This document shows positions 54,989-62,350 of a stretch of 64,000 bases of DNA, piece after piece. Both the position numbers and the translations under genes were made by a program. This DNA comes from Thiorhodovibrio frisius (GTDB lineage Bacteria; Pseudomonadota; Gammaproteobacteria; Chromatiales; Chromatiaceae). Within the stretch, counting starts at the first letter, position 1. Every line of letters starts with the position of its first letter. The stretch is taken from the NCBI RefSeq assembly GCF_033954835.1, contig NZ_CP121471.1:1178001-1242000 (forward strand), written 5' to 3'. The notes beneath the pieces are model-generated. The model was given only the letters and a program-made list of their open reading frames with translations, did not search any database and was not told the origin of the DNA.

Positions 54989-57900
54989 CTAGTCTGCGCC
55001 ACTGCGAACAATCCATCCAGATCGCTCGAGATAGCTGGCATAAAGCGGGATGAGCGCGTCATAGTCGGCATCAAGCGACGCGCCAGCCGCCTGGAGTGCC
55101 GCCAGCGTCTGTTGTTGCTCCGTGGGTGGCGCTTCGCCAGACAGGTCGCCGGTGTAGAAGTCCTTGATTTGGCTCAGCGCGTTGTCCGGGGCCAGGTGAC
55201 TGAGGCGCTTCTGCCACGCGGTCGCTGGCTCCGCCTGGGCTGGATAACCAGCGGCAGACAGCTGAGCGAAGAAATCGCCCAACGATAGGCTGGTCGGATT
55301 GGCCAGGTTGGCCACCAGCAGCCTGCTTTGGGACTCGGGCGGCTCTGGCGCACGGGTGGCCAAGGCGGCGATGGCAGCGGCTAGGTGATCGACTGGCATC
55401 ATCTCGATAGGCATGGGGATATCCGGGTAGGCGCCGAGTTGCAGGCAGCCCTTGGTGAAGCGCCAGAAGTGGTTGTTGTGATAGTTGCTGTAGCCGCTCG
55501 CACTGCTGCCGGTGATATTGCCTGGCCGAGCGATGACGGCAGGCAGGCCGAATTTGCGCACCGCACGGGCGATGCGCTGCTCGCCGACCCATTTGGTCAG
55601 GATATAGCCGTTATCCACCGCCGGCGCGTTGGGCAGGACATCCTCGGCAATCCGATCAACATCGGTCAGTGAGGCACCGACGGTGATGGTCGAGACATAG
55701 CAGAAGGGTTTCTGCCGACCGCTCAGGGCGAGCGCCAGCAGCGCCTCGGTGCCGCCGACGTTGATCGGCTTCATGGTCGCATAGCTGTAGAGATGATGGA
55801 CGAAGGCGCCGCAGTGGAGGATGGCGTCGATGTCGCTCGCCAGGCGCGCATGCGCCTCGTCGCTCAAACCGAGTCCGGGTTCGCCCAGATCGCCTGGGAC
55901 GATGATGACGCGAGCAAAATCCGGATCGACGCCAGCCTCGGCGGCCTGCTTGCGCAAGGCGGCCAGACCTGCGGCCTTGTTATCGCAGCGCAACAGGCAG
56001 TGGACATGCTCGCAGCGCCGGGTCAGCTCTGCAAGCAGGAAGATACCGAGGAAGCCGCGCGCGCCGGTCAGCAGGATGGACTGCGGCGCAGCCATTGGGT
56101 CCTGGGGATGCTGCGCCGGTTCGGCTACGAGGAGTTCAGCCTCGGCATCGGCAACAGCCTGAGCGATGAAGTCCTGCTGCTGACCAGCCGCCAGCGCGGC
56201 GATGGTTGGCGCGCGGTAGAAATCACTGATGCTGAACTCGAGCCCCAGCTTTTTCTCAACTGCCGCCTGCATGCGCACCGCCAGCAGCGAGTTGCCGCCG
56301 ACGTTGAAGAAACTGTCATCGCGATCAATGCCGTGGTAATGCAGCAGGTCTTCCCAGATGTCGGCGATCTGCCGCTCCGCCCCCTCCTGCGGAGGATTTT
56401 GGCTTTCCTTGCCAGCGACCGCTGGCAGTGCCTTGCGATCGATCTTGCCGCTTGGCGAGACGGGCAGGGCAGACAATCGCACAAAGAACGACGGAATCAT
56501 GTAATCAGGCAAGAATTCGCCAGCATGCTTGCGCAAGGCCGACTCGCAGAGATCACTGTCAGCCAGATAGTAGGCCGCAAGATAACGGTTCTCGCCCTCG
56601 CCCTTGGCCGCGCAGACCACCTGCTTGATGCCGGGGAAGCTCGCGAGACTGTTTTCGATCTCGCCGAGTTCGATGCGGAAGCCGCGCACCTTGATCTGCG
56701 CGTCATTGCGACCGAAAAACTCGATGGTGCCATCGGGCAAAAAGCGGCCAAGATCGCCAGTCAGATACATGCGCGCATAGGGCGAGCCACCGAAGGGGTC
56801 GAGCACGAAGCGCTCGACGGTCAGATCGTCGCGGTTCAGATAACCGCGCGCGAGCCCCTCGCCGCCAATGCAGATTTCGCCAACCGCGCCCTGGGGCACC
56901 GGCTGATGGTCGCGGTCGAGCAGATAGAGTCGATAACCCGGCAGCGGACGGCCGATGATGCGCGCATTGGCGCCTGGCGCGATCTCGCCGAGCGAGGCCA
57001 TTACTGTGGTCTCGGTCGGCCCGTACATGCTTAGGAATCGAGTTTGGCGCGACCACCAGTCGGCGGTCTGCTGGTCGATCACATCACCGCCGAAGCCGAG
57101 CATGCGCAATGCTGGCAGCGGCTCGTGCGGCAGGTTCCTTAGTACCACGGGAGACATGATGGTATGTGTGACGCCGAGCTCTCCGATGGTGCGATGCAGC
57201 AGCGCCGGCTCCTTGCGCGCATCCTCAGGCACCACGGCTAGCGTGTGGCCATTGAGCAGGGCCGGGAAGATCTCGAGCACGCTGGCATCGAAATTCATCG
57301 AGGCGATTAAGGCGACAACGCTGCCCGCCTCGAGCTGCATCGCAGCGGCGGCGCTGACGGCAAAATGCACCAGGTTGTGCTGCTCGATCATCACCCCCTT
57401 GGGCTGACCGGTGGAGCCGGAGGTGTGAATGATGTAGGCCAGGGTTTCTGGGCCGACCTTTGGCTGCTCGCCCGCGCTTGGGGCGAGATCCTGATCCGGA
57501 TCGAAAAAGCGCAGGCCCCCCAGTCCTATCTCAGTCAGCGCCTCGCGGCTCGGGGCATCGGCGGCGACATGGGTCACGCCGGCATTCTCGGCGAAGAAGC
57601 GCAGCCGCTCCGGCGGGTAGCTGGGGTCGAGCGGCACATAGGCGCAACCGGCCTTGAGGATGCCAAGCAGGGTGGCGACCAAGGTGTCGCTCTTGTGCAT
57701 GCTGAGTCCAACACGGCTGCCGGGCGCCAGGCGCCGCAGCAGGCCAGAGGCGATGCGATCACTCAACTCGGCGAGCGCCTGGTAGCTGAGTGAGCGCCCT
57801 TCGAACAGCACGGCTGGCGCCTCGGGTGCGCGCGCTGCGACACTGGCAAAGCGCGCAGGGATCGTGGAGGGCGGCAGCTCTAGCCGTGGCCCACAGGCAA

Positions 57901-62350: not shown

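Follow-up and report, generated by a model that had tools for sequence, protein, structure and literature searches.

A two-module, reductive-release nonribosomal peptide synthetase of Thiorhodovibrio frisius with a conserved HPxxxDR motif in its N-terminal condensation domain

The window, that is, the whole 64,000-nucleotide stretch of Thiorhodovibrio frisius DNA that we analysed, contains a nonribosomal peptide synthetase (NRPS) encoded by a single open reading frame of 2,453 codons, the ATG of which is preceded by aaaggaggataagcc (an AGGAGG site). Pfam detected two AMP-binding, two Condensation and two PP-binding domains together with one NAD_binding_4 domain (aa 2094–2327), and the combined Pfam and NCBIfam matches confirmed the C-A-T-C-A-T-R domain order given in an earlier sequence-only reading of this DNA, the coordinates and frame of which were exact (Table 1). 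The two condensation domains, C1 and C2, are the only PF00668 matches in the 5.42-Mb genome, which consists of one contig, and scored 74.1 and 165.5 bits, respectively (cut-off, 30.6). The R domain scored 246.7 bits with the NCBIfam thioester-reductase model (cut-off, 213.35) and contains the nucleotide-binding motif TGARGFLG. Its T2221/Y2249/K2253 triad is identical in the four full-length relatives that were aligned (G052, G407, G599 and G565, described below), in agreement with the reductive release proposed earlier. The carrier serines S993 and S2021 and both A10 lysines are also present and are kept in the relatives aligned at these positions, and no E domain was found in the NRPS. By its predicted domains the protein is a reductive-release dipeptide NRPS (C-A-T-C-A-T-R), the product itself being a prediction. 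The score with the AusA model NF047350 (845.6 bits) is far below the cut-off of 2500, and the NRPS is therefore not AusA; the score with the model for the myxochelin synthetase MxcG, NF038078, was likewise far below its cut-off (870.8 versus 2300 bits), so that neither model supplies the close characterised NRPS that would have contradicted the sequence-only reading.

Table 1. Positions, within the window, of the synthetase, its domains and the adjoining permease gene
Feature	Position	Strand	Remarks
HAAAP-type amino-acid permease	53627..54934	-	TIGR00814 238.6 bits, below 525.8 cut-off
Two-module NRPS C1-A1-T1-C2-A2-T2-R	54989..62350	-	2453 aa; Pfam and NCBIfam domain matches
R thioester reductase domain, aa 2088-2440, T2221/Y2249/K2253	55031..56089	-	boundary by hand
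T2 carrier domain, aa 1985-2058, GGNS2021L	56177..56398	-	boundary by hand
A2 adenylation domain, aa 1495-1978	56417..57868	-	boundary by hand; pocket DALILFMVM-K
C2 condensation domain, aa 1050-1490	57881..59203	-	boundary by hand; Pfam match 57923-59143
Intact HHAIFDG, aa 1182-1188, in C2	58787..58807	-	
T1 carrier domain, aa 955-1032, GGHS993L	59255..59488	-	boundary by hand
A1 adenylation domain, aa 455-945	59516..60988	-	boundary by hand; pocket DALFISIVM-K
C1, N-terminal condensation-like domain, aa 1-440	61031..62350	-	boundary by hand; Pfam match 61334-62329
HPLILDR, aa 135-141, at HHxxxDG position of C1	61928..61948	-	

The permease gene lies directly downstream, with its ATG 54 bp past the NRPS stop codon. 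The start of the next open reading frame (51939–53627) overlaps the permease gene end by one base; its product carries a Schlafen/AlbA_2 domain (66.7 bits) preceded by a dCache-like region, the score of which (34.2 bits) did not reach the Pfam cut-off (45). An open reading frame on the minus strand 48 kb from the NRPS (4901–6676) matched long-chain-fatty-acid-CoA-ligase models best, below cut-off, and is the only non-NRPS A-domain-like open reading frame in the window and in the loci of G052, G407, G565, G599 and G600. No stand-alone carrier protein was found among open reading frames of at least 45 aa in the window or these five loci, and no P450 among the Pfam-scanned neighbours (six window open reading frames besides the NRPS, and nine in relatives). 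A HetI-like phosphopantetheinyl transferase is encoded at approximately 3.08 Mb; it scored 33–35.5 bits with PF01648 (cut-off, 25) and gave an E value of 3.4e-29 with the NCBIfam HetI model, below that model's cut-off.

The sequence-only reading had pointed out that C1 carries HPLILDR where HHxxxDG is expected, with the second His and the Gly replaced, and that C2 is intact, and both statements held. An intact HHxxxDG elsewhere in C1 was not found by either of two approaches. In a scan for H-x-x-x-x-D, VCHPLILDRFSLR was the sole such site in the C1 domain match (C2 has CIHHAIFDGWS), and alignment of a C1 profile to solved C domains placed hPlvlDR on HHIISDG of 8xjz and HHIVSDG of Txo1. The PDB matches of this profile are of mixed subtypes and include, at 70.7 bits, 7c1h, which we take to be a solved lipopeptide starter domain; six others scored higher. 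These matches were obtained with the profile alone, a single-sequence phmmer search of C1 against the PDB yielding none at E ≤ 1. An AlphaFold model of C1, based on two alignment rows, was too poor to interpret (mean pLDDT, 45.1; pTM, 0.37).

The altered motif recurs as H-P-x-x-x-D-R-[FY]-S-L in all seven C1 domains of the lineage that could be read across the site in frame: HPLILDRFSL in T. frisius and G052, HPALIDRFSL in G407, G599 and G600, HPIVVDRYSL in G565 and HPALLDRFSL in a broken copy in Caballeronia. Given that the same change is found in independent genomes, HPLILDR is not a sequencing error. In a broken C1 remnant of G051, HPLILDRF is still legible and is followed by a stop codon. 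Among the 105 C-domain matches of the fetched loci, 13 have HPxxxDR, and all 13 are copies of the seven C1 domains; after deduplication, 6 of the 83 C domains have HPxxxDR and 71 have HHxxxD. In an alignment of six C1 domains, 55 of the 435 columns are invariant, with six of these falling within the ten columns 135–144. The H, D and S residues of this loop are common to C domains generally, and P136 and R141 are therefore the telling residues. A condensation domain with HPxxxD or HPxxxDR was not found described in the literature, where motifs are rarely written in this form, so that the absence means little. Other C domains of the fetched loci have lost the second His in different ways: HQGANDSW domains are present in two genomes of one genus (L016:1357-6030 and L019:1-4674), in NRPSs that are otherwise ordinary, and HAIIWDA or HSIIWDA domains in two related genomes (L022:1-1819 and L023:4542-5993).

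Full-length relatives of the NRPS are few. With the whole protein as query, 38 of the 210 genomes of the family sample gave matches at E ≤ 1e-50, but only those of T. frisius and G052 were full length, and in the class sample of 369 genomes full-length matches were obtained for T. frisius, G407 (64% identity) and G565 (33%); because no more than two candidates were scored in each genome, members may have been missed. A search with C1 alone (E ≤ 1e-8) detected 4 of the 210 family genomes, namely T. frisius, G052, G051 (remnants) and G029, whose matching C domain is ordinary. A search of genome contigs returned a single match, the G052 gene, which belongs to the metagenome-assembled genome Chromatiaceae bacterium CSSed11_194 and whose product is 76% identical to the T. 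frisius NRPS over the whole protein. The family of G407 (39 genomes) yielded G407, G599 and G600, the last with an NRPS cut by the contig end and no C2 on its contig, as well as weaker matches in G581 and G610; that of G565 (36 genomes) yielded G565 and a weaker match in G629. Identity of C1 to that of T. frisius is 54–56% for G407, G599 and G600 and 22% for G565. Samples of 48, 349 and 275 genomes, which overlap with the others and are not additive, added no new member (no match, T. frisius only and no match, respectively).

Among 72,556 plasmid records, the C1 domains of T. frisius and G407 each matched one, the broken copy on plasmid p1 of Caballeronia grimmiae (L072:8971-12100), in which broken C1, A and R pieces remain; the annotation gives hypothetical proteins plus one short AMP-binding protein. 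The G565 C1 matched 107 records, with 23–25% identity among the 15 listed, and the three that were inspected have ordinary HHxxxD. None of the 137 pattern matches in viral contigs was a relative. In G051, which belongs to the genus of G052, only C1 remnants with stops and truncation were found (L034:9081-9815 and L068:166-441), suggesting that the NRPS gene is being lost in this genus. The patchy distribution is as compatible with transfer and loss as it is with descent.

In trees of C domains, the C1 domains formed one clade (SH-aLRT of 98 in the quick tree, support of 98 in the FastTree run), as did the C2 domains of the same proteins, G600 excepted (97 and 96, respectively); both modules therefore seem to have been inherited together. 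The quick tree left out domain matches of fewer than 330 model positions, among them the Caballeronia piece, and the FastTree run left out five long-branch rows. The trees contained no named starter references, and the N-terminal status of their rows, read from fetched open reading frames of which some are cut at an edge (for example, L007), was not used. A profile of the five closest C1 domains with the loop masked gave 182.3 bits for the Caballeronia piece, 86.8 for the G565 C1 and 56.0 for the next best match. With the G565 C1 as query, however, the ordinary C domains of L049, L089 and L088 (85.8, 84.7 and 74.6 bits) scored higher than the best HPxxxDR C1 (73.7). When G565 was removed from the tree, the five closest C1 domains stood beside seven other C domains with a support of 0.44; when those five were removed, the G565 C1 grouped with the C1 domains of L080 (0.86) and L053 (0.93). 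On these comparisons the assignment of the five-genome C1 core to one lineage is firm, and kinship of the G565 C1 with the other HPxxxDR domains is likely, being supported rather than proved because the reciprocal query and the leave-one-out trees do not join it to them.

Selection on C1 was estimated by the method of Nei and Gojobori for the pairs T. frisius–G052 and G407–G599; the pair T. frisius–G407, with its larger dS (1.54 for C1), was not used. The dN/dS of C1 was 0.22/0.93 = 0.24 for the first pair and 0.08/0.86 = 0.09 for the second, and the corresponding values for C2 were 0.15/0.92 and 0.05/0.49. The C1 ratios lie close to those of the other domains. Between T. frisius and G052, C1 is 68% identical and the least conserved of the large domains, with A1, C2, A2 and R at 76–83%. 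C1 thus evolves at a somewhat higher rate than the remaining large domains, yet is clearly under purifying selection. The sequence-only reading had regarded C1 as vestigial and had suggested descent from a longer assembly line. The altered motif is kept down to 22% C1 identity, so that C1 looks repurposed rather than decayed, and the five full-length members, at 2,407–2,484 aa, are not much longer than two modules and R, which does not favour such a descent.

The surroundings of the gene differ among the relatives. A permease gene whose product is 70% identical to that of T. frisius directly follows the NRPS gene of G052, but none stands beside those of G407, G599 and G565, and the permease is therefore outside the conserved core. 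The NRPS gene of G407 has a flavodoxin-like gene and ClpB upstream; that of G599 is preceded by a BamB gene and followed by a convergent MFS transporter gene; and that of G565 is preceded by an RmuC gene and followed by a convergent gene for a fusion protein (L067:9635-13129). This protein of 1,164 aa combines indoleamine-2,3-dioxygenase (IDO)-like, oxidoreductase NAD-binding and cytochrome b5 parts, an unusual self-sufficient heme-enzyme design. In both G599 and G600 (L081:8022-15293 and L082:5328-8104), the NRPS gene lies right after the BamB-like gene in a housekeeping region. Given that this site differs from that in G407, a member of the same genus, the NRPS gene appears to be mobile as one unit. 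The loci of T. frisius, G407, G599 and G565 were not seen to share any neighbour.

From this architecture we propose that A1 and A2 would each adenylate a non-polar L-amino acid for attachment to T1 and T2, respectively, that C2 would form the single peptide bond, and that R would use NAD(P)H to reduce the dipeptidyl thioester to a free aldehyde. The aldehyde would then close on its own free amine to give a cyclic imine, to be oxidised to a pyrazinone. The residues lining the pockets, at presumed positions that predict a substrate no further than 'non-polar', are DALFISIVM for A1 and DALILFMVM for A2; those of the G565 A2 are nearly the same as the latter (DALVLFMVA), and its A1 differs. An L,L-dipeptide is expected because no E domain was found and T1 has LGGHSL, a form reported beside LCL domains (PMC10212144). 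Two-module NRPSs that end in R are described as releasing dipeptide aldehydes, from which pyrazinones form by cyclisation (PMC8210680, PMC7586950). The sequence-only reading had contrasted C1 with pyrazinone synthetases of the aureusimine type, which it took to start with A-T. This contrast needs correcting, given that C-A-T-C-A-T-R is called typical for dipeptide aldehyde and pyrazinone NRPSs in PMC10979478, a label that is applied there to staphylococcal work as well and may be loose, and given that we found three more proteins of this order, in G610, Variovorax and Streptomyces, all with an intact C1 (the Streptomyces protein follows another NRPS gene).

With its catalytic His lost and its HPxxxDR loop fixed, C1 would make no bond in this scheme and would most likely serve as a structural partner of A1 in a C-A platform, by analogy with C1 of beauvericin synthetase, the closest experimental precedent that we found. 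In that domain the His is reported to be absent and condensation activity lacking, a motif mutant was still productive, and deletion abolished expression (PMC5457498). A retained, non-condensing C1 in the initiation module of a synthetase that makes a dipeptide aldehyde and, from it, a pyrazinone is the reading that we prefer, with about even confidence. A pure scaffold would not need H135, P136, D140, R141, S143 and L144, all of which are kept at 22% identity, and the loop therefore seems specific. Tentatively, HPxxxDR[FY]SL may define a distinct functional subtype of C domain in reductive-release initiation modules, with a job other than amide formation by the usual His; positioning of aminoacyl-T1 and acceptance of an acyl donor at the H135/D140/R141 site are examples. 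With similar reserve, the motif may be said to have stayed unchanged while the rest of C1 diverged to 22% identity and while the gene spread, by descent or transfer, to a Caballeronia plasmid and to three or more families of Gammaproteobacteria.

Acylation by C1 would decide the product, given that a free amine cyclises and an N-acyl aldehyde does not. We consider it unlikely that C1 is a functional starter condensation domain with an atypical site. Such a domain would acylate the T1-bound amino acid, probably with acyl-CoA as the donor, and the product would be a non-cyclising N-acyl dipeptide aldehyde of the protease-inhibitor type. Like starter C domains, C1 occupies the N-terminal position, and it retains H135 and D140; 7c1h is among its profile matches, although six others score higher; and the seven C domains that adjoin the C1 clade in the tree without G565, at a support of 0.44, include the C1 domains of the C-A-T-C-A-T-R proteins of G610 and Variovorax. 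An acylating C1 is conceivable because some C domains work without the second His: a review (PMC11546977) cites mutants at this residue that remain active, as well as a functional HQxxxDM enzyme. N-acyl dipeptide aldehydes from a gut-bacterial NRPS cluster have been described (PMC8518294), and the fatty-acid-CoA-ligase-like gene of the window, at a distance of 48 kb, would also suit acylation. In the predicted protein, however, the second His and the Gly of HHxxxDG are both replaced, which argues against acylation, and the proteins of the same domain order from G610, Variovorax and Streptomyces keep HHxxxDG in C1, so that the architecture does not require the HPxxxDR change. In the loci of G052, G407, G565, G599 and G600, no acyl-activating gene was seen apart from the NRPS gene itself.

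A role as a recruitment or gate domain, with the altered site binding a protein or ligand that acts on the intermediate on T1 or T2, appears rather improbable. A precedent is the glycopeptide X domain, which has the C fold, carries HRxxxDD in the corresponding loop and recruits P450s (PMC8949500, PMC11546977). Conservation of the HPxxxDR loop as a unit and the convergent heme-dioxygenase fusion gene beside the G565 NRPS gene would suit such a role, but the loci of T. frisius, G407, G599 and G565 share no neighbour that might encode the partner, the permease being limited to T. frisius and G052 and the IDO-like gene having been seen only in G565. It is very improbable that C1 is decaying and no longer has a role, since its lower conservation and missing catalytic residues are set against purifying selection, the same derived motif throughout the lineage and the state of the decayed copies, in which the damage extends beyond C1: the C1, A and R pieces are all broken in Caballeronia, and only C1 pieces were found in the other decayed genome, G051.

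The C-A-T-C-A-T-R architecture is known; the distinguishing feature here is an HPxxxDR motif in C1 that is fixed across a lineage. Inactive-looking N-terminal C domains are easily dismissed as relics, and a C1 change that is both fixed and under selection therefore offers a clean test of a non-condensing C domain and of the role of the second His. As the sequence-only reading had stated, a described product from purple sulfur bacteria does not appear among the literature matches listed, which carries little weight. If the NRPS does make a dipeptide aldehyde, free or acylated, an anoxygenic phototroph would be the source of a metabolite of the protease-inhibitor or pyrazinone type. In genome mining, acylated and unacylated products may not be distinguishable from the C-A-T-C-A-T-R order unless the C1 motif is read too.

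Among known systems, AusA starts with A-T, whereas the present NRPS has a C domain first. AusA and PznA share with it the two modules, release by an R domain and the logic from aldehyde to pyrazinone (PMC8210680). Synthetases of the order A-T-C-A-T-R in G004 and G145, of the same bacterial family, also have two modules and R and are 32–33% identical to the T. frisius protein from aa 464 on, but they lack C1. Their genes (L035:209-8601 and L036:8045-16518) are followed by what are, by eye, likely genes for a GMC-type oxidoreductase and an Sfp-type phosphopantetheinyl transferase, a gene order that corresponds to a more classical pyrazinone-type operon. The gut-bacterial NRPSs of Guo et al. (2017), as presented in PMC10979478, PMC8210680, PMC8518294 and PMC12327764, release dipeptide aldehydes through an R domain in the same way and, according to PMC10979478, have the same domain order; some of their products are N-acylated, and the present C1 has HPxxxDR. 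The glycopeptide X domain likewise shows the C fold and a change in the HHxxxDG loop, but has HRxxxDD, lies in the terminal module and has P450 partners, whereas the present C1 has HPxxxDR and is the first domain. The fungal beauvericin and bassianolide synthetases resemble the T. frisius enzyme in having two modules and a retained N-terminal C domain, which in beauvericin synthetase is without the catalytic His; they differ in being iterative, in releasing the product through C3 and in having divergent C1 domains, as reported in PMC5457498, whereas HPxxxDR is fixed in the lineage described here.
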